Assembly (NCBI GenBank): GCA_945867435.1
Contig: CAMBIK010000015.1
Coordinates: forward strand, 1 to 32,092
From: Klebsiella pneumoniae
Lineage (GTDB): Bacteria; Myxococcota_A; UBA796; SXON01
Direction: 5' to 3'
Length of the DNA stretch: 32,092 nucleotides
Positions 2,526-30,055 of this stretch are shown piece by piece (the first letter of the stretch is position 1; every line of letters starts with the position of its first letter). The notes beneath the pieces were generated by a model. The model saw nothing but the letters and a program-made list of their open reading frames with translations, did not search any database and was not told the DNA's origin. Made by a program: the position numbers and the translations under genes.

Positions 2526-4022
2526 TCACCAGGCCGTGCCCCCGGGTGCCGAGAGCCCCGACCTGACCAACGTTCCTACCGCGACGAGCGCGGGGTGCAT
2601 CACCTGATCGTCGGCCCAGTAGGGAACGACCTCCCGAATCCGCGCGTGGAGCGCCATGATTCCGGGTCCGAAGCGGTCGGGCGCCACGCGGTCCCGCACG
2701 CCATTCACGACGCGATCCCCTCGGAGACGCCAGTCCAACCCTTGCGCGGCAAGCAGGGCTTCGATCCCCACGATGTCGGCCACACATTCCAGCACGCGCA
2801 GCGTGTGGCGGGCCGCGATCGGACCCATGCTGACATGGTCCTCGTGGTGCTGGACCGTGGGAATGCTGTCCACGCACGCCGGATGCGACAGGCCCTTGCA
2901 TTCGCTGGCGAGCGAAGCGGCCGTGTACTGCGCGAGCATGAAACCGCTGTTGAGCCCGGTCCCTTCCACTAAATAGCTTGGGAGGTCCTTGGTGATCGAG
3001 GATGCGGTGAGCCGGAACGTGCGCCGCTCGCTCTGGGTGGCGGCCTGGGTGAGCGCGATTCGAAGGGTATCCATCGCCAGCGCCACGGGGGCACCGTGAA
3101 AATTGCCGCCTTCGACGACCCCTTCATCCTCGAACCACAGCGGGTTGTCACAGGCCCCGTTCAGCTCCACGGCAACGGTGCCTTCCACCCAATCGAGGGC
3201 GTCGAGCGCAGCACCGAGCACGGCCGGGGCCGCACGAAGGGAGAACGCGTCGGGAGAACGTGCGCCCAACCCCGGCTCTCCGAGGCGGTCGCGAAGCGCC
3301 TGGGCGACCCGAATCCCCCCCGAGTGCCCACGCGCCCCCACCAACGCCGCGGACAAGAGCCCCTTGTCGGCGCGGGAGACCGCCAGCGTGAGCGCACAGG
3401 CATCCAGCGCCGCATCCAGCACCCGCCGGGAACGAAACACGGCCAACGCCGATAAGGCGCTGGTGAGCGTGGCGCCGTTGATCAAGGCCAGCGCTTCCTT
3501 CGCGGTCGGGACAAACGCGGCGAGGGGCGAAGGGCCCACCGAGCCATCGGGCAGGTCCGCCCGGCCCCCGAAGCCGCACAGCACCCGGGCCACATGCGCC
3601 AGCGGCGCAAGATCGCCCGCGGCACCCACCGAACCCTGCGAAGGCACCACCGGAATCACGCCGGAGTCGAGCATCGCACACAGGGCTTCCACTAGCGCGG
3701 GCCGCACGCCGGAGTGCCCCCCCGCGAGCACGTTCGCCCGACAGGCGATGAGGGCCCGGACCTGACCGCTCGGCAGGGGCTCGCCAACGCCGGCACAATG
3801 GCCGATGACGAAGCTTCGCACCAGGTCTTCCCCTGAGACAGCCGAAGCGCCGATCAGGAACCGCCGCTTGGTTTCCAACACGTTGGGGGAGGTCGGGTAG
3901 GCGGCCGCAGACCGGTCCATCGCAGCGCGGGCGGCGGGGGCAAGGCGGATGCCGGCACCCGCGGCAATGGCGGCGACCTGCGAACAGCTGAGCGAACGGC
4001 CGTCGATCTCGATGGGGCTCAT
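2526..4022 (-). CDS. Aromatic amino acid/histidine ammonia-lyase family (MIO-fold) paralog B, predicted MIO-deficient
   Basis: 498 aa. GSVGAAGDLAPLAH, HEDHVSM, GGNFHGAPVA, NSGFMLAQYTAA are family signatures, but AAG replaces ASG. Confidence 0.9.
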   Translation of the reverse strand: MSPIEIDGRSLSCSQVAAIAAGAGIRLAPAARAAMDRSAAAYPTSPNVLETKRRFLIGASAVSGEDLVRSFVIGHCAGVGEPLPSGQVRALIACRANVLAGGHSGVRPALVEALCAMLDSGVIPVVPSQGSVGAAGDLAPLAHVARVLCGFGGRADLPDGSVGPSPLAAFVPTAKEALALINGATLTSALSALAVFRSRRVLDAALDACALTLAVSRADKGLLSAALVGARGHSGGIRVAQALRDRLGEPGLGARSPDAFSLRAAPAVLGAALDALDWVEGTVAVELNGACDNPLWFEDEGVVEGGNFHGAPVALAMDTLRIALTQAATQSERRTFRLTASSITKDLPSYLVEGTGLNSGFMLAQYTAASLASECKGLSHPACVDSIPTVQHHEDHVSMGPIAARHTLRVLECVADIVGIEALLAAQGLDWRLRGDRVVNGVRDRVAPDRFGPGIMALHARIREVVPYWADDQVMHPALVAVGTLVRSGLSAPGGTAW

Positions 4023-5515
4023 GCGAACGCGCCCTCCGCGATACGGGCGGCGATGACCTCGATGGCTTCCGCCGCCACCTCATGTTCGGCGGCGATCGAC
4101 TCCAAAAGGGGCATCACGGCCTCGGCACCGGCCCCGAGCCGCACGCCAGGCGCCTCGTCCAGCCGAAGCCGAAGGGCGCGGGAGGCGCAGAGCAGCTCGA
4201 TCGCGACCACGCGGCGACTGTTCTGGACCATCTCCCAAAGCCTCCACGCGGCCGTCGTGGACATGGCCACATGGTCCTCCTGGTCTTCACACGTCGGGAT
4301 GCTGTCGACTGTCATCGGCCACGCCAGCGCCTTGTTCTCGGAGACCAGGGCCGCCGCGGTGGTCTGGGGCACCAGCATGCCGAGGTCGGGCCGGTCTCGC
4401 CCCACCAGCGCCGGAGGCAGGCGTGAGGAGAGCGACCCCGTGGTGAGCCGGTAAAGCCGCCGCTCGGAGATCGACGCGATCTCCGCCACCCCGACCTTCA
4501 TCGCGTCGGCGGCCATGCCCACGGGCTCGCCGTGAAACAAGCCGGCGGAGAAGGCGTGGTTCGCGACATCCTCATCCATCAGCATCACCGGATTGTCGGT
4601 CACGCTGTTCAATTCGATCTCGACCGCGCCGCGCCCATAGCGCAGCACATCTCGCACGGCCCCCAGAACAATCGGCGTACAGCGTAGAGAATAGGCGTCC
4701 TGGACCTTCTCCGGCATCGAGTCGACAAGCGTGCTTCCTGCCAGCAACTCCCGCAGGCGCGCCGCGGATTCGATCGCGCCAGGGTGAGGCCGCAACGCGT
4801 GTACAGATGCGTGAAAAGCGCGACTAACGCCGCGGAGCGCCTCGATGCTCATTGCGGCCGCCCGCTCGGCGGTCCGCAGCAGCACCGTTGCGTCGTGCAG
4901 CGCCAGAGCCGTGATGGCGGTCGTGAGCTGCGCGCCGTTGGTCATGGCCAGACCATCCTTCGCGGCCGGCGTGAGCGTGCCGATCCCTGCGGCCCGCATC
5001 GCCGCGACCCCGCCGCTGGCCGTTCCCAGCACCTCGCCCCCCTCGCCGAACACGACCAGCGCGAGATGGGAGAGCGGCGCAAGATCTCCCGACGAACCAC
5101 AGCTTCCCTGGCGTGGCACCTTCGGCACCACGCCGTGCTCCAACATCCGACACAGCGTTTCGACCAGGGCGGGGCGGCACCCCGACGCGCCCCGTGCGAG
5201 CGCGTTCGCACGCAGCACCATCATGCCGCGAACGACATCCTCCGGGCAGGGTGGTCCGACGCCAGCGGCGTGACTGCGGATCAGGTTTCGCGACAACTGG
5301 CTGGTGTCTGCGGTGGCGATCCGGACCCTCGCCAGCGAGCCGAAACCCGTGTTGATCCCGTAGATAGGCGCATCGGAGGCCAGGGTGGATTCCACCCAGT
5401 GAAGGCTCCGTTCCATCTCCACGCGGGCGGCCGGCGCGAGCGAAACCACCGCTCCGGCGCGGGCAACCGCCACAAGGTCATCGAGGCTCAGCGACAGGCC
5501 ATCCAGCGCGATCAT
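4019..5515 (-). CDS. Aromatic amino acid/histidine ammonia-lyase family (MIO) paralog A
   Basis: 498 aa. YGINTGFG, GSCGSSGDLAPLSH, DAYSLRCTP, QEDHVAM. ATGA overlap with paralog B. Confidence 0.9.
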   Translation of the reverse strand: MIALDGLSLSLDDLVAVARAGAVVSLAPAARVEMERSLHWVESTLASDAPIYGINTGFGSLARVRIATADTSQLSRNLIRSHAAGVGPPCPEDVVRGMMVLRANALARGASGCRPALVETLCRMLEHGVVPKVPRQGSCGSSGDLAPLSHLALVVFGEGGEVLGTASGGVAAMRAAGIGTLTPAAKDGLAMTNGAQLTTAITALALHDATVLLRTAERAAAMSIEALRGVSRAFHASVHALRPHPGAIESAARLRELLAGSTLVDSMPEKVQDAYSLRCTPIVLGAVRDVLRYGRGAVEIELNSVTDNPVMLMDEDVANHAFSAGLFHGEPVGMAADAMKVGVAEIASISERRLYRLTTGSLSSRLPPALVGRDRPDLGMLVPQTTAAALVSENKALAWPMTVDSIPTCEDQEDHVAMSTTAAWRLWEMVQNSRRVVAIELLCASRALRLRLDEAPGVRLGAGAEAVMPLLESIAAEHEVAAEAIEVIAARIAEGAFA

Positions 5516-6219
5516 GGGATCTCAACCCAGATCGAGCGGGGGCCGGGAGTAAGCGTGCCATCGGAGGCAATGCGAAACCAGGCGCGAAAGCCGCGCTTCT
5601 CCGACTGGCCGTGGACCAGCACGTCCATGTTCCCATCGCCATCGAGGTCGGTCGGCGGGGCGAGCACTGGCACAGCGCAGGTCGCTTCCGCGTCGGGCAA
5701 GAGCACGGACGACAGCGTAGCGCTCGCCTCCGCATCCAGCACCGCCAGCGCCGCCTTGCAATCGGAAGGGCTGTTCACAGGCGAAGGCCCATCCTTTCCC
5801 GGAATGCCGTGATCGCCGCTCGTGGCCACCGCCAAGTACACAGGAGGCGCCAGATTCCGCCTCATCTTCACCATGCTGCGCATCGACACGCCCGCGCCCC
5901 GCGCCGGATCGATCTCCGGGGTCGGGGCCGCGCCGAGCACGTCTCGCAGCCGGAATCCGGCGCGTTCCACCAGCGCAGCTGGCACGGGGGCGCCCTTGAG
6001 CACCGCCGGCACGTCGCGACCGACCACCCACAGGGGACCCGCTTCCCCCAGCAGCGTGGTGCCCGACGGCCCCGGCGAGGGCACGCGGGTCACCGTGCCC
6101 GCCGGGCTCCACAGCAGGACAGGCTCGGTGTAGGTTCCCTGAACAATCGCATTTGCACCCGACTTATAGACGCCGGCATCGGGCGTCGGGGCGGGGCACG
6201 CGAGGAGGAACAGCAGCAC
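5512..6219 (-). CDS. Putative lipoprotein with one FG-GAP/VCBS-like motif
   Basis: N-terminus MLLFLLACPAP (lipobox-like LLAC); DLDGDGNMDVLVHG. 4-nt overlap with the downstream ammonia-lyase start. Confidence 0.65.
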   Translation of the reverse strand: MLLFLLACPAPTPDAGVYKSGANAIVQGTYTEPVLLWSPAGTVTRVPSPGPSGTTLLGEAGPLWVVGRDVPAVLKGAPVPAALVERAGFRLRDVLGAAPTPEIDPARGAGVSMRSMVKMRRNLAPPVYLAVATSGDHGIPGKDGPSPVNSPSDCKAALAVLDAEASATLSSVLLPDAEATCAVPVLAPPTDLDGDGNMDVLVHGQSEKRGFRAWFRIASDGTLTPGPRSIWVEIP

Positions 6220-9810: not shown

Positions 9811-9830
9811 CCGCGACCAACGGTCAGCGG
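9811..9830. terminator. Short inverted repeat between convergent stops, possible bidirectional terminator
   Basis: CCGCGACC-aac-GGTC(a)GCGG stem with one bulge between stops of the cyclase and the MopE-like gene. No clear U-tract. Confidence 0.3.
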
Positions 9831-11728
9831 CGTTGGCGCGCCCGTAGCAGCAGCACCCCCCACGCGAGCGCAGCGCCCTGGCACCCCGGTGCTTCAGCCT
9901 TCGCAGCCAGGCTCCAGGCGTCCGGAACGACGGTCACCCCGGCGGTCGCAAAGGCCTGCGCCCCCCCTGCGCCCGTGCCGATCACGGAGAGGGACACGGC
10001 CCGGCTCTGGTCCGGGTCCATCAGTTCCGGGCAGGTAAACGTCGTGGAGGCGGCCAATGGCTCAGCGAACCCCGCCCCGCCCTCGGCGGCATCCGACCCC
10101 CAGGCCAAAGCCAACTCCCCGTCCACGAACGCTGCGACCTCCAGTTGCTCCCCCGCGTGGCAGGCGTCCGGCACTACGCGCAGGGCCAGGATCGCAGGCT
10201 CACGAACAGGACAATCCTCGTCCACCTCGGCATCGCAGTCGTCATCTTCCCCGTTGCAGGCCTCGGCGGTCCCGGGGCTCACCTCCGACCTGGCGTCGTC
10301 GCAGTCGCCCAGCGCTTCGGCGTAGCCGTCCTTGTCGTCGTCTCCCGACGACGTGCCCTCGTCCACCACGCCATCGCAATCGTTGTCGCGGCCGTCCGCA
10401 GCCTCAAAGCCGCCTGGGAAGACATCGGCCTCGCGATCGTCGCAATCGTCTACGGAAGTGCCGTCGCCATCGTCATCGGTCTCCGGCGTTCCCTCGTCCA
10501 CACGCCCGTCGCAGTCCTGGTCGGCAGCATCGGTCACCTCCGGAGCGTCGGGGAAGATGTCGGCCCTTGCGTCGTCACAATCGCCCTCTACGACCCCCCA
10601 GCCGTCGCCATCGGCATCGTCATCGGCAGGCGCATCCACCCGCAACGAGATCGCGTCAAAGCCGATGTTGCCGTGCCAATCCTGCACGGCAACGGTGAGT
10701 GTGTCCGGTCCCGCCGCCAGCGCATTGCCGCTCACGGTGAGGCTCACCGTTCCCGAGTCGTTTCCGGGCCGCGCGAACAGCACATACTCGCCGCGAACCA
10801 GGCTGTAGACCGCCACGGCCATCGTCGTGGGGGTGTCCAGATCGTCCGCCAGTGCAACGGTGAACTCCACGGGCGAACCGGTCACCACCGCAGCCCCTGT
10901 CAGCGGCGAGAGAATCTTCACGTCGGGAGGAGCACTGAACGAAGGTGCAGAAAACCACAACTCACCCACCGGGTCCACGCCCTCGCCCGTCGTAAGCGTG
11001 AGCGTGCAGCGTACGGTCGCGGGGTCGGCCGGCGTGTGGGTGAGCGTGACATCGACCGACTCCCCCGGCAGGACCGTGAGGCCAGGATTGGGCGCGGCGA
11101 GCACGGCAACGTCCGGGCCACATTGATCGAGCGTTGGGCTCAGCACGGCCACCGATGTGTTTCCGTTGTTGACGGCCGTCCAGGTGTGCTCGGTGCGGGT
11201 GCCATCGGGCCAGTGCCAGGGCGCTTCGACCACCCGCGTGACAAAGGCGAAGGCGGTGGCGAGAGCTTCGGGCGCGGCCCCGTGGAGCACCACCTCCTGG
11301 GCGAAGTTCAGCGGGTCCCCTCCGCTTTCGGGGCGCTCGGGGATCGACCCATCGGTGGGCCAGGGTCCGGACTCGGCCTCGACCCGCAAGGCACCGAACG
11401 CCTCCCCGGAACCATCTGCCGTGAAGCGAAGCGCCAGGGGCACCACGCAGCCGGCGCAGACCGTGTCGGGGGGGTCGTTTTCCAACGCGAAGCGGGAGTC
11501 CCCGGTCACACGGATCTCGAGCAGCTCGAGGTTGACCTCGCCGGGATTGGTGAGCGCGATCTCCGCCAAAACCGACTCTCCCGCCGCCAACGCACCGAAC
11601 TCCAACTCCGTGACGCTCACCTCCAAGGCAGGCAGCACCACGGTTTCGGAGCAGCCCGACAGCCAGGCGAACAGGACGAGGACAGGCCCCACCGGCCTGA
11701 TGCAAGGCAAAAAAGCCGCAAGAGCCAT
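9824..11728 (-). CDS. Secreted/lipoprotein-like protein with MopE-type metal-binding repeats and MYXO-CTERM-like tail
   Basis: Three D-x-DGDG...GDCDD...DxDCDGxVDEG repeats; choice-of-anchor-like N-terminal region; tail GCQGAALAWGVLLLRARQRR. Confidence 0.8.
   Translation of the reverse strand: MALAAFLPCIRPVGPVLVLFAWLSGCSETVVLPALEVSVTELEFGALAAGESVLAEIALTNPGEVNLELLEIRVTGDSRFALENDPPDTVCAGCVVPLALRFTADGSGEAFGALRVEAESGPWPTDGSIPERPESGGDPLNFAQEVVLHGAAPEALATAFAFVTRVVEAPWHWPDGTRTEHTWTAVNNGNTSVAVLSPTLDQCGPDVAVLAAPNPGLTVLPGESVDVTLTHTPADPATVRCTLTLTTGEGVDPVGELWFSAPSFSAPPDVKILSPLTGAAVVTGSPVEFTVALADDLDTPTTMAVAVYSLVRGEYVLFARPGNDSGTVSLTVSGNALAAGPDTLTVAVQDWHGNIGFDAISLRVDAPADDDADGDGWGVVEGDCDDARADIFPDAPEVTDAADQDCDGRVDEGTPETDDDGDGTSVDDCDDREADVFPGGFEAADGRDNDCDGVVDEGTSSGDDDKDGYAEALGDCDDARSEVSPGTAEACNGEDDDCDAEVDEDCPVREPAILALRVVPDACHAGEQLEVAAFVDGELALAWGSDAAEGGAGFAEPLAASTTFTCPELMDPDQSRAVSLSVIGTGAGGAQAFATAGVTVVPDAWSLAAKAEAPGCQGAALAWGVLLLRARQRR
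10207..10630 (-). repeat. Three tandem MopE-like Asp-rich repeats (coding)
   Basis: DADGDGWGVVEGDCDDARADIFPDAPEVTDAADQDCDGRVDEG plus two related copies. Confidence 0.8.
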
Positions 11729-11851: not shown

Positions 11852-12529
11852 ATGTCCGCATCCGCCGTTTCGTACGCACGCCTCGGGCCCGAAACCCTCG
11901 GGGATGTCGATCTCCTCGAGCTTGCGGTCGGCAGTCGCGAGGTCGCGGGCGCCCTGCTCGACCGCTTCGGCTCGGCGGCCGGACTCCTCGCCGCTTCGCC
12001 AGCCGCCCTTTCGAAGGTGGCGGGGACGGTGCGGGGGGTGCGGCTGCACGCGGCCCTGGCGCTCGCCCACCGTGCTGCTGGCGGCGCCCCGCCTCGCGCC
12101 ATCGTGCGAACGCCCGCGGATGCAGCGGCGTGGCTCGTGCCTCGCCTCGCCGGCCTCGATCACGAAGAACTACACGCCATTTTCCTGGATTCACGCGGGG
12201 GGGTGGTGGCGGTCTCGCGGATGAGTCAGGGGGGCCCGGACCACACCATCTTCGACGTGCGCCATGTGCTCGGCGAGGCGCTGCGGGTCGGGGCGAAAAC
12301 CATCCTGCTGGCGCACAACCATCCCAGCGGCGAGGTCGAGCCTTCCGACGACGATCGGCTCGCCACGCGGCGCCTGGTGGAGTGCGCGGAGCTGATCGGC
12401 ATCCACCTGGGGGATCACCTCATCGTGGCGGGCTCCCGGTGGACCTCCATGGCGGAACGCGGGGAGCTCGCCGCCCCGACTGTTTGGCGGGCCAACTCTC
12501 AGCCCAGGCCCCACCGCTTCAGCTTGTAG
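11852..12529 (+). CDS. radC: RadC family JAMM/MPN+ protein
   Basis: LGPETLGDVDLLEL..., LLAHNHPSGEVEPSDDD (HNHPSG..PS..D), 225 aa. ATG at 11852. Confidence 0.9.
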   Translation: MSASAVSYARLGPETLGDVDLLELAVGSREVAGALLDRFGSAAGLLAASPAALSKVAGTVRGVRLHAALALAHRAAGGAPPRAIVRTPADAAAWLVPRLAGLDHEELHAIFLDSRGGVVAVSRMSQGGPDHTIFDVRHVLGEALRVGAKTILLAHNHPSGEVEPSDDDRLATRRLVECAELIGIHLGDHLIVAGSRWTSMAERGELAAPTVWRANSQPRPHRFSL

Positions 12530-14103
12530 AGCAGGGAGGACCGTGGAATTCCGAGCATTCGGGCGGCCACGGTGCGGTTGTCCTTGGCGCGACGCAAAGC
12601 ATCGACCACCACTTCGCGCTCCGCCTCGTCGATCGAATTGGTCCGGCCCGGCTCGGGTGGCGCATCGCGATCGAGCGGCGAGAACATGAGGCACGCGGGC
12701 TCAACGAGCGGGCCGAAGAGAACAGAAGCGCGGGTGAGCACGTTTCGAAGCTCACGCGCGTTTCCCGGCCACGGGTACTTCTGAAGCGCGAGGACAGCCT
12801 CCGGGGTGATCCGGAGCTGGGGGTGGATCTTCTTCGCGATCGCGGTCGAGATGGCGGGGATGTCGCCCGGACATTCACGCAGCGAGGGGAGCCGCACCGC
12901 TAGCACCGCCAGGCGGAAGTAGAGGTCGCTCCGGAAGCGCCCGTCGCGTGCTTCCTCGTGCAACCTGCGGTTGGTCGCCGCGACGATGCGCACATCGGGA
13001 AAGCTGGGGTCGGCAGCACCGACCCGCCGCACTTCGCCGGTCTCCAGAGCCCGAAGCAGCTTGGCCTGGGCTTCCTCGGGGAGCTCCCCAATCTCATCCA
13101 GGAAAAGCGTGCCGCCGTCGGCGCGATGGAAGGCGCCGTCGCGGCGCTCGCTGGCCCCGGTGAAGGCGCCCTTTTCATGCCCAAAAAGTTCGCTTTCGAA
13201 GAGAGTCGGGGTGATGGCACCGCAGTTCACGGCCACGAAGCGGGCCGCGGCCCGTGGGGATGCGTCGTGAAGGCCGCGCGCCGCCAGCTCCTTGCCGGTG
13301 CCCGACTCCCCGATCAGCAGAACCGGCGCGTGGTGGGCCGCCATGCGTCGCAAAAGACCGAAGGCCGAACGCAGCGGTTCTCCGGTCCCGACCATCTCCC
13401 CGAAGCGCTCGGCGCTCGGCGTGTCCACCCGCGTGTCCCAGTCGACCCGGATGAGCGTGGCCCCGATCCGCAGGTCCTCCCCCACATAAAGCGGGGTCAC
13501 GTCGCGCACGCGGATCGGCCCCAGAAAGGCCGCGCCTTGGCCCGGCTCCACCATCGTGCGCCCGCTGGTGAGCCGGATTCGGACGTGGTCCCGGACCAGC
13601 GACGCGTCAGGCAGCACAACGCGGCTGCCCTCGCCACCGACCGTGACGCGCCCCCCCCGAAGGCGGTGCCGCTTGCCACGCCCGGGCCCGTCCACGACGA
13701 CCAACCACGCCTCCGATACCACCAGCCCCGCCGCAGCGTCGACCAACTGCTCGTGGCGCGCTTCCGGCTGGGCCGTCTCGGTGGGAGAAGCACCGTCCTC
13801 CACGTTCAGCTCGAGTCGGGCGACAAACGGTCCGATGCGAACGCAATCGCCCTCGGCCAGGACGGCGCGTTTGGTGCGCGCACCGTTCACCCACGTTCCG
13901 TTGCTGCTGCGGTCGGTAAGCTCAACGCTGGTCCCGCCGCAGTCGAACAGGCAGTGGGACCGACTGACCGCATCGTCGGGGAGCACAACATCGTTGTCGT
14001 CGGTCCGGCCCACACGCGTCCGGCCGGTGCGGAGTCGGTACGCAAACATGGGCTCCGCGTCCGGTCCCGGTTCACCTCGGAAGAATGTAAGACGACCGTT
14101 CAT
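12499..14103 (-). CDS. Sigma54-dependent transcriptional activator with two FHA domains
   Basis: N-terminal FHA (RVGRTDDNDVVLPDDAVSRSHC..SSNGTWVNG), second FHA-like region, AAA+ with GESGTGKE, GAFTGA, and C-terminal Fis-type HTH. Confidence 0.92.
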   Translation of the reverse strand: MNGRLTFFRGEPGPDAEPMFAYRLRTGRTRVGRTDDNDVVLPDDAVSRSHCLFDCGGTSVELTDRSSNGTWVNGARTKRAVLAEGDCVRIGPFVARLELNVEDGASPTETAQPEARHEQLVDAAAGLVVSEAWLVVVDGPGRGKRHRLRGGRVTVGGEGSRVVLPDASLVRDHVRIRLTSGRTMVEPGQGAAFLGPIRVRDVTPLYVGEDLRIGATLIRVDWDTRVDTPSAERFGEMVGTGEPLRSAFGLLRRMAAHHAPVLLIGESGTGKELAARGLHDASPRAAARFVAVNCGAITPTLFESELFGHEKGAFTGASERRDGAFHRADGGTLFLDEIGELPEEAQAKLLRALETGEVRRVGAADPSFPDVRIVAATNRRLHEEARDGRFRSDLYFRLAVLAVRLPSLRECPGDIPAISTAIAKKIHPQLRITPEAVLALQKYPWPGNARELRNVLTRASVLFGPLVEPACLMFSPLDRDAPPEPGRTNSIDEAEREVVVDALRRAKDNRTVAARMLGIPRSSLLYKLKRWGLG

Positions 14104-27479: not shown

Positions 27480-28061
27480 ATGATCCGCAGCGCCTTCAAA
27501 TCCGGACTCAAGCGCATCCTCGGCGTCGAAGTCAAGCCCTCGCCCGCGCCCCCGCCGGCCTGGCGCGAGGTGCCGGCCGCTCGGGTGGAGCCGCCCGTAG
27601 TGCAGGCCTCAAAGCCTGTGTCTCCGGAAGCCCCCCCCCCGGTCGTGGAGGTGGTGGCACCGGTCGTCGAGCTTGCGCCGGAACCCACGCCCATCCCCGC
27701 GGAGAAGAAGTCCAAGGCCAAGAAGAAGGCCGCCCCGGTGGTCGAGGCCGCCCCGGTCGTCGAGGCGACTGCGGTCGTCGAGGCGGCAGGGGCCGTTCAG
27801 TCCTCAGGGGTAGACGAAGTCGGCCCTGCAGCCTACTCGATGGAACAGGTGCAGGAACTGTTCGACGAGATGGTCCGGCCCGCGCTTCAGGGCGATGGCG
27901 GCGACATCACGCTGCTCCGCATCGAGGCCAACGATGTGTACGTCCGGCTCGTCGGCAGCTGCTCGACCTGCCCCTCCTCCATCCTCACGATGAAGATGGG
28001 AGTGGAGTCGCTGCTTCGCGAGGAACTTCCAGGATTCGGCAGCCTCATCCAGGTGGATTGA
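27480..28061 (+). CDS. NifU C-terminal-domain Fe-S scaffold-like protein with Pro/Ala/Val-rich N-terminal extension
   Basis: MEQVQELFDEMVRPALQGDGGDITLLRI...GSCSTCPSSILTMKMGVESLL. Confidence 0.88.
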   Translation: MIRSAFKSGLKRILGVEVKPSPAPPPAWREVPAARVEPPVVQASKPVSPEAPPPVVEVVAPVVELAPEPTPIPAEKKSKAKKKAAPVVEAAPVVEATAVVEAAGAVQSSGVDEVGPAAYSMEQVQELFDEMVRPALQGDGGDITLLRIEANDVYVRLVGSCSTCPSSILTMKMGVESLLREELPGFGSLIQVD

Positions 28062-29130
28062 TCCACCCGGCTTCGATCCATTCGGCGACAGGATGGTGCA
28101 GCCCAACCTTTCCGACCGATAACATCGACGCATCGCCGCCTTCGTCGAGCCACGCGGACACCCGGCACCAGCCGATCCAATAGACCCGATCCTTGGCGTA
28201 CACGCCAGGTTCTTCGGGGTCAGCCAATCCACGCTTGATGCGCACGCAAGTGGTCCACGCGCCGGCAGGCCCTAGCAGCGTTTCCAGTCCCCGGTACACC
28301 TCAGTAAAACCCTGTTCGCGGGCACGCCGTACCGCTGCTGCGAGCAGCGCCAGCCGATTGGAGGTGCCATCCGGCAGCCCCACCGCACGGGCCTCAGCGT
28401 GCAACGCCAGCCCTTCCTCGGTTGCCAGCGAACCGGCGAGCCCATGGGCGAAGATCGTCAGCGGTTGCCTCGCCCCCGCTTCTGCCCGCCCAACATGCAC
28501 GCCCACCTCGTGAGCGACGAGCGCGACAAGCTCTGTCTCCGAAACGACAGCGCGGGGGTTCACGCGAAGGACACGACGAGGACTGTCCACCACCACGCGC
28601 GCAGTCATGATGGGGTCGGTCTGCACGGTCCAGTCGCCATGGCCGGCCTGAACGAGCGCCTCGCGAAAAGCGGTGAGCAGCGCATCGTGCGGCACCACGG
28701 TCCGGTCCTCCCGCCGCAACGGCGGTGCGACTGCGGGGGGGGGGCCAGCATCCTGGTACCACCCGCTTGCCGAGGCGAGCGCCTCGAAGGCGAGCGCAGT
28801 GCGGTCCCGAAGCGCACGGATGGAAAGCGCAAGCTCATCGCGGGCGGCGGACACTTCGCGGCCGAGGGGGTGGTGAAGGGGGGGGCGCACGTCGTCGCAC
28901 GCCTCGAGGAGCGCGTCGGCATCCGGCAGAGGGAGGTAGCGAAAGCGCGCTGGATTGCCTCTCAAAAAGCTGGCTCTCGCCTCCACCTCGTCCAGAGGGT
29001 TGAGGTGACGGGAGGCGGCGAGACGGACCTGGAGCGCAGCGAGCTGGCGATCGGCGCGAAGGAGGTCGTCGGGGAGGTCCATCAGACGGTGTAGCCGGGA
29101 GAGGGTGTGCCGGGCTAACCGGCCGCGCAT
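28045..29130 (-). CDS. DUF1704/KIAA0895 (MATCAP-like) metallopeptidase
   Basis: VALVAHEVGVHVGRAEAGARQPLTIFAHGLAGSLATEEGLALHAEA: HExxxH and EEGLA. GGAG SD upstream of ATG 29130 (29142 alternative). Confidence 0.8.
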   Translation of the reverse strand: MRGRLARHTLSRLHRLMDLPDDLLRADRQLAALQVRLAASRHLNPLDEVEARASFLRGNPARFRYLPLPDADALLEACDDVRPPLHHPLGREVSAARDELALSIRALRDRTALAFEALASASGWYQDAGPPPAVAPPLRREDRTVVPHDALLTAFREALVQAGHGDWTVQTDPIMTARVVVDSPRRVLRVNPRAVVSETELVALVAHEVGVHVGRAEAGARQPLTIFAHGLAGSLATEEGLALHAEARAVGLPDGTSNRLALLAAAVRRAREQGFTEVYRGLETLLGPAGAWTTCVRIKRGLADPEEPGVYAKDRVYWIGWCRVSAWLDEGGDASMLSVGKVGLHHPVAEWIEAGWINPPG

Positions 29131-30055
29131 GGAGTTCTCCATCGAGCGCGTGGCGGCGATGCCCACCCCATTGGTGCGCTCCGCACTCGCCCCGTGGGTT
29201 GCGGGCCATCTTGAAGCGACACCCGAAGCCCGGGCCGCTCTGGTCGACCAGCTCCAGCGAATCGTGGACGCGGCGAGCGACGGCGAGATCGACTCGATGC
29301 GGATCACGTTCGCGAATGCCGGAGATACTTGGCGTTTCCACCCGGCAGACCCCCTCGCACGCCGGGTCACGCGCGCGTACATGGCCGCGGCCGTGCAACC
29401 CTGGTGGTTTCAAGGTCGCGAACCGCTGGACCGCTTCCTCACCTCACCCGCGAAGCGAAGGATGGTGGTCTGCAACCACCTGTCCTACACCGACACGCAG
29501 GTGACCGACGTGGTCTTGGCGCTCGCAGGACAGGAGGCGTTCGCGAACCGTCTCGTGGCCATCGCGGGGCCCAAGGTGTACACCGAGCCGTGGCGACGCA
29601 TGGCTTCCATCGCGCTCAACACTCGGAAGACCGCCCAGTCCAGCCGGGTGGCCTCGGAGCAAGGCGCCCTCGGCCCTCGGGAACTTGCCGTGGTGGCACT
29701 CGAGACTCTCGCCGATGCCGTTCGCTTGATGGACCAAGGCTACATCGTTCTGTTGTACCCCGAAGGCACGCGCGCCCGTCATGGCAGGCTGCAGCCGTTC
29801 CTCCGCGCCGCCGCTCGCTACCTCGCGATCGAGGGGCTCGAAGTGATGCCGCTCGGCCAGGTGGGGGGCGAACAGGTGTTCCCCATGGAAGCCACCATCA
29901 TGCGTCAGGCGGCGGTGAACCTGGTGTGCGGCGATTCGTTTCTCACGGCGGACTACGCTGGTAAAGCGGCCGCGCTGGAGGAATGCCACCGACGAGTGGC
30001 CGCGCTGCTCCCCGACACGTATCAACCGGCCGCAGGCTCGCTGCGCGTGGACTGA
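29129..30055 (+). CDS. PlsC-like 1-acyl-glycerol-3-phosphate acyltransferase family protein
   Basis: VCNHLSYTDTQ (Hx4D) and LLYPEGTRARHG. Start 29129 or 29159. Confidence 0.8.
   Translation: MEFSIERVAAMPTPLVRSALAPWVAGHLEATPEARAALVDQLQRIVDAASDGEIDSMRITFANAGDTWRFHPADPLARRVTRAYMAAAVQPWWFQGREPLDRFLTSPAKRRMVVCNHLSYTDTQVTDVVLALAGQEAFANRLVAIAGPKVYTEPWRRMASIALNTRKTAQSSRVASEQGALGPRELAVVALETLADAVRLMDQGYIVLLYPEGTRARHGRLQPFLRAAARYLAIEGLEVMPLGQVGGEQVFPMEATIMRQAAVNLVCGDSFLTADYAGKAAALEECHRRVAALLPDTYQPAAGSLRVD

Follow-up and report, generated by a model that had tools for sequence, protein, structure and literature searches.

A stretch of 32,092 nucleotides (contig CAMBIK010000015.1 of assembly GCA_945867435.1, hereafter the window), deposited under Klebsiella pneumoniae and placed by GTDB in the Myxococcota_A lineage UBA796, carries on its reverse strand two adjacent paralogous genes of the histidine ammonia-lyase (HAL) type, here termed lyase A and lyase B. 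HAL is the textbook example of a homotetramer with a self-made electrophile, 4-methylideneimidazole-5-one (MIO), and active sites that are shared between subunits. In the current study, comparative sequence analysis would suggest that A and B probably form a heteromeric HAL (HutH) in which B is a pseudoenzyme subunit. A more specific version of this proposal, namely an obligate heterotetramer with split, complementary active sites, half the catalytic centres and two vestigial pockets as possible allosteric sensors of histidine or urocanate, is put forward tentatively, as a real possibility rather than as the expected outcome.

Complementary residue losses in lyases A and B

The features on which the comparison of the two proteins is based are as follows, with active-site residues here and throughout numbered as in P. 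putida HAL.

4019..5515, reverse strand: lyase A gene, 498 amino acids, predicted catalytic HAL-type subunit
2526..4022, reverse strand: lyase B gene, 498 amino acids, MIO-less HAL paralogue
5087..5095, reverse strand: Ser-Ser-Gly (SSG) codons of A, the MIO triad; SSG in every A-family member
3615..3623, reverse strand: Ala-Ala-Gly (AAG) codons of B at the MIO-triad position; every full-length B examined has Ala in place of the MIO Ser
5339..5362, reverse strand: YGINTGFG loop of A, which carries the catalytic Tyr (HAL Y53) and is missing from B
3096..3107, reverse strand: GNFH motif of B (HAL N328-F329-H330); GLFH in A
2937..2957, reverse strand: GLNSGFM segment of B, canonical; replaced in A by RPDLGML (4373-4393)

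A and B share 40% identity across 455 residues, and both are full-length proteins of the Lyase_aromatic family (PF00221), with 551 and 396 bits, respectively. The HAL subfamily model PRK09367 (cut-off 524 bits) is passed by A, with 543.6 bits, while B falls below the cut-off. AlphaFold2 (AF2) models of the two proteins, when compared by Foldseek, match solved HALs over their entire length: the model of A (predicted local distance difference test (pLDDT) score 89.6, predicted template-modelling (pTM) score 0.91) has P. putida HAL (1b8f) as its best match, with a template-modelling (TM) score of 0.90, and that of B (pLDDT 88.6, pTM 0.91) adopts the HAL fold with a TM score of 0.86.

The full HAL set of active-site residues is present in A, i.e. 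Tyr53, the Ser-His dyad with His83, Asn195, Gln277, Tyr280, Arg283, Phe329 and Glu414, and its MIO triad lies within the stretch QGSCGSSGDLAPL. The corresponding stretch of B is QGSVGAAGDLAPL, and the triad of the B family is Ala-Ala-Gly or, rarely, Thr/Ser-Ala-Gly; Ser-Ser-Gly, unlike Ala-Ala-Gly, is among the accepted MIO precursors (PMC9002059). B retains His83, Asn195, Arg283, Phe329 and Glu414 and has lost the MIO Ser, the Ser of the Ser-His dyad, the Tyr53 loop (by deletion), Gln277 (to Pro) and Tyr280 (to Phe). In Geobacillus HAL, mutation of the equivalent of Tyr53, His83, Asn195 or Glu414 abolished activity and the Y277F protein could not be produced, while the Ser-His dyad and Glu414 are typical of HAL (PMC11432326). 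Since Ala-Ala-Gly is not a MIO precursor and the Tyr53 loop, Gln277 and Tyr280 are lost, B should not be a lyase by itself. As a separate observation, Cys139 (beside the MIO triad; ~5099-5101) and Cys409 (near Glu414; ~4289-4291) are invariant in 36 aligned A sequences and may form a disulfide or a metal site near the MIO.

The losses in A and B are reciprocal, as was established using two reference sets of HALs. The first, of 40 HALs from a contig scan, was partly found with the B-derived peptide GFMLAQYT and so favours B; the second, of 38 HALs obtained via the HutH model or from annotated or tblastn-identified plasmid records, was chosen without reference to B and gave the same result. Among the columns conserved in at least 85% of these 38 HALs, 63 are retained in both A and B. 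A further 22 are kept by A alone (20 in the N-terminal and two in the C-terminal half), including the Tyr loop, the Ser of the Ser-His dyad, the MIO Ser, Gln277 and Tyr280, while 13 are kept by B alone (three and ten, respectively), including the Asn of GNFH, the Phe of LPxF and the Gly and Ser of GLNSG. The columns lost by A include 326, 369, 375-378 and 383. This N/C split gives a Fisher p-value of 8e-5, and at 95% conservation (12:1 versus 0:6) one of 3e-4, values which are indicative as these tests count neighbouring columns as independent.

The HAL active site is made up of three interlocking chains (PMC9002059). Complementary losses of this kind would be expected of an obligate heteromer with composite active sites, and we regard the reciprocal loss as the strongest evidence that the two proteins may build joint active sites. 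Following the general architecture of HAL and PAL (phenylalanine ammonia-lyase) structures, one chain would contribute the MIO, Tyr53, His83, Asn195 and Glu414, a second Tyr280 and Arg283, and a third Phe329; a chain-by-chain list for HAL was not found in the open literature text. On this assignment, the losses would fit an A2B2 assembly in which the third part is supplied by B and the other two by A.

The following course of events is proposed. One ancestral hutH would have been duplicated in the ancestor of the order, after which A would have retained three features, namely the MIO to which Ser-Ser-Gly gives rise, the loop with the catalytic Tyr, and the site of Gln277 and Tyr280. B would have lost all three and become a pseudoenzyme, while retaining its substrate-binding residues, the fold of a HAL, and the GNFH, LPxF and GLNSG segments that are altered in A. 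Each subunit may in this way have shed the half-site that was no longer needed after duplication. The simplest assembly using what each subunit kept would be A2B2, with two working sites in which the MIO and Tyr280 halves of A are combined with the third segment contributed by B; the other two sites, those of B, would be dead but may bind ligand and exert regulation. Physical assembly, stoichiometry, histidine as the substrate and the allocation of segments to chains are what we infer here.

It is also conceivable, if unlikely, that A alone constitutes a working homotetrameric lyase, with B acting separately as a pseudoenzyme for regulation or ligand sensing that binds histidine or urocanate outside the sites of A. 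The classical catalytic residues are indeed complete in A, those kept by B (H83, N195, R283, F329 and E414) would be enough for substrate binding, and unlinked A and B genes persist in one genus (see below). However, this explanation does not account for the GNFH, LPxF and GLNSG columns that are changed in A and kept in B, and it sits poorly with the strong co-evolution of the two proteins described in the following section.

Co-inheritance and selection of the pair

The distribution of the pair was assessed in 58 relatives and then in all 63 genomes of the order, as well as in the class, a sample of the phylum and a scan of GTDB contigs. B is present in 48 of the 63 genomes (one copy being partial, at a contig end) and A accompanies it in 48 of 48; the two are adjacent in 43, with A before B. 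In all five genomes of one genus (G011, G016, G018, G020 and G021), A and B are located on different contigs, well inside them where this was checked, and both are retained. A was seen without B in G010 alone, where the 3.6-kb contig carrying it stops shortly after the gene. B was not found in eight other genomes of the class or in approximately 316 more sampled from the phylum, and its scores are well set apart (575-830 bits for the B family versus at most 458 bits for all else in class and phylum).

In the GTDB contig scan, B was confined to metagenome-assembled genomes titled mostly Deltaproteobacteria, Myxococcota or proteobacterium, including UBA796; a few are titled Klebsiella or Bifidobacterium, which are unlikely names. 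Candidates for B outside the order were rejected, as the four genome matches that were inspected (L227-L229 and G042) carry ASG and the non-B matches of the contig scan are canonical ASG, SSG or ACG HALs. The initial annotation had held that widespread solitary AAG paralogues would speak against a heteromer; no solitary B gene was encountered in the order, the class, the phylum sample or the contig scan. Its suggestion that a MIO-bearing A and a MIO-less B might form a heteromer thereby withstands the test set for it, with A and B together in 48 of 48 genomes, and is strengthened by reciprocal loss and co-evolution.

In phylogenetic analysis, A and B each form one clade with a support of 100 in the Shimodaira-Hasegawa-like approximate likelihood ratio test (SH-aLRT), and both group with HALs of Calditrichota/KSB1 (support 98). 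The latter (L146, L148 and L160), to which A and B are more closely related in the tree than to any other outside sequences, differ from them in being ordinary single ASG HALs. This topology is consistent with the gene having been duplicated once, close to the root of the order.

Both proteins are under purifying selection, with ratios of non-synonymous to synonymous substitution (dN/dS, YN00 method) of 0.07-0.17 for A and 0.11-0.21 for B. The loss of the MIO, the Tyr loop and Tyr280 might in principle mark B as a decaying, functionless duplicate. This explanation is barely credible and is refuted by conservation: besides the low dN/dS of B, its reading frame is intact in nearly all of the 48 genomes, 62 of its 498 columns are invariant across the order, and it is kept even where it is unlinked from A.

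Patristic distances of A and B are correlated with an r of 0.92, and after the removal of HutU distances the partial r is 0.72, or 0.79 within the family of the window (Mantel-type p 0.0005). Judged by these distances, A and B co-evolve. The A and the B that diverge most within the set were found together (L060, in G046), both long-branched and with SAG and a His for Phe329 in B, as if the two had drifted jointly.

Probable role in histidine degradation and relation to known lyases

The initial annotation had noted that no hut genes lie near the pair and had taken this to argue against histidine catabolism. The first statement is true of the window and not of the genome, in which hutU, hutI and hutF were located on other contigs: HutU on C9 (904 bits) and HutI on C1 (361 bits), both above cut-off, and HutF on C274 (417 bits, above the NF006681 cut-off although cut by the contig end). 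The argument drawn from it fails, given these genes and the fact that no PF00221 protein other than A and B was found in the genome, which is 76% complete. Since HutU, HutI and HutF are present and no other HAL is, A and B most likely represent the HutH step of a scattered hut pathway. HutU was detected in 40 of 43 A/B-bearing relatives, while G042, of the same order and without A/B, possesses an ordinary ASG HAL that adjoins HutU and HutI on one contig. FtcD was not found in the 76%-complete genome, and two arginase-family genes were rejected as HutG, being arginase- and agmatinase-like.

Besides the dependence between neighbouring columns and the presumed chain assignment, the following weighs against a heteromeric HAL. 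The hutH equivalog model TIGR01225 (cut-off 539 bits) is missed by A, with 518 bits (B scores 394.8). Where canonical HALs and B read SGFM, A reads LGML, and it does not show the Met380 that is reported to be conserved in bacterial HALs (GkHAL/PpuHAL numbering; PMC11432326). These two findings indicate that the substrate of A could differ. Moreover, linkage and common ancestry can raise the A-B correlation without contact.

A may have changed its substrate to another aromatic or imidazole amino acid, in which case A/B would be a new lyase or aminomutase and not HutH. To the missed equivalog threshold and the pocket segment changed from GFM to GML can be added that the pair does not adjoin hut genes in the loci examined. 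We nevertheless consider this improbable, as the Ser-His dyad and Glu414 of A are of the HAL type, HutU, HutI and HutF are encoded in a genome with no other HAL, HutU accompanies A/B in most relatives, and the canonical HAL of G042, which lacks A/B, lies beside HutU.

Two further observations concern HALs elsewhere in the data. HAL homologues with Ala-Cys-Gly in place of Ala-Ser-Gly (L069, L071 and L088, in G022, G031 and G033, and L167) are found in genomes with a divergent HutU (~410-425 bits); this triad could cyclise through Cys or could be a sign of another function. In G049, G029 and G043, ASG HAL matches (L075, L076 and L077) occur in separated pieces, two of them within one long frame, which would suggest an insertion or a frameshift.

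If A and B do form a heteromeric HAL, they would represent a natural, subfunctionalised version of the textbook homotetramer in the MIO family. Known HALs are homotetramers from one gene, with four identical sites and Ala-Ser-Gly (PMC11432326). Two co-inherited, reciprocally degenerate genes would argue against this one-gene model for A and B. A MIO-less or heteromeric HAL was not found in a literature search, most subscription journals being outside its reach. With HutH of P. putida (1b8f), T. cruzi (6v6h) and T. acidophilum (7tqr) the pair shares the fold (TM ~0.9 for A and 0.86 for B), the active-site residues of A and the presence of hut pathway genes in the genome; it differs in having two genes with complementary losses, one for an SSG subunit and the other for an AAG subunit that lacks the MIO.

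Within the MIO family, mixed tetramers are said to have a precedent in tobacco, where PAL isoforms reportedly form heterotetramers (a study by Reichert and colleagues from 2009). Each of those isoforms is reportedly active and MIO-bearing, with neither a MIO-less subunit nor an obligate pair. A hutH-annotated protein inside the hut cluster of Priestia megaterium plasmid NZ_CP085419 (L282 266-1804 / L285) is likewise MIO-less and reads GSLGYLNHQAH where HALs read GS(V/L)GASGDLAPLAH. It occurs on 12 plasmids at at least 99% identity and differs from B in that it keeps the Tyr loop, is without the whole ASGDLAPLAH stretch, has no paired lyase gene alongside and belongs to an unrelated lineage; on its sequence, it is an independent MIO-less HAL homologue.

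An order-wide pair of this kind would illustrate how gene duplication leads to the division of a shared active site, and B would provide a conserved MIO-family pseudoenzyme. The pair could also give a two-subunit scaffold for PAL/HAL-type engineering because its halves could be varied separately.

Gene junctions and neighbouring genes

The initial annotation had described a three-gene unit headed by a lipoprotein gene, and the three open reading frames and both ATGA overlaps were confirmed.

5512..6219, reverse strand: lipoprotein gene, 235 amino acids, short signal; heads the unit
5512..5515, reverse strand: stop/start overlap ATGA (4 nt) of the lipoprotein and A genes, read from the sequence
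4019..4022, reverse strand: stop/start overlap ATGA (4 nt) of the A and B genes, read from the sequence

The A-B junction was measured in 43 pairs, of which 40 overlap (by 4 nt in 30, by 8 nt in eight and by 1 or 10 nt in two) and three do not; the 8-nt overlaps belong to another lineage. The overlap is therefore not due to chance and has been maintained although its exact form changed. The overlaps had been thought to imply near-stoichiometric translation, of which the coupling is supported, while equal amounts are not proved by overlap alone because lyase B carries its own GGAGG approximately 10 nt upstream of its start.

The lipoprotein did not prove to be a core member of the unit. Its very short signal ends in L-L-A-C, and both signal and Cys are conserved in the family of the window, which makes the lipoprotein call plausible; it matched no Pfam or NCBIfam family. 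It accompanies A/B only in the family of the window, no homologue lies beside the pair in most other families (a weak 26% match precedes A in G044), and it is not beside A in the genus with unlinked A and B. On this distribution it would be a neighbour and not a core part of the enzyme unit, the plain reading being that of a co-transcribed envelope protein. Gene neighbourhood was rejected as a guide to function, as the sole genes to recur beside A/B are that of the lipoprotein and a divergent isochorismatase-like one, and these only close to the window.

Elsewhere in the window, all on the reverse strand, 9824-11728 encodes a lipoprotein-like protein that combines Ig-like domains with metal-binding repeats of the MopE type, 12499-14103 a typical myxobacterial regulator in which an FHA domain is joined to a sigma-54 activator with a Fis-type helix-turn-helix, and 28045-29382 a bacterial relative of the microtubule-associated tyrosine carboxypeptidase MATCAP (PF08014, 95 bits).

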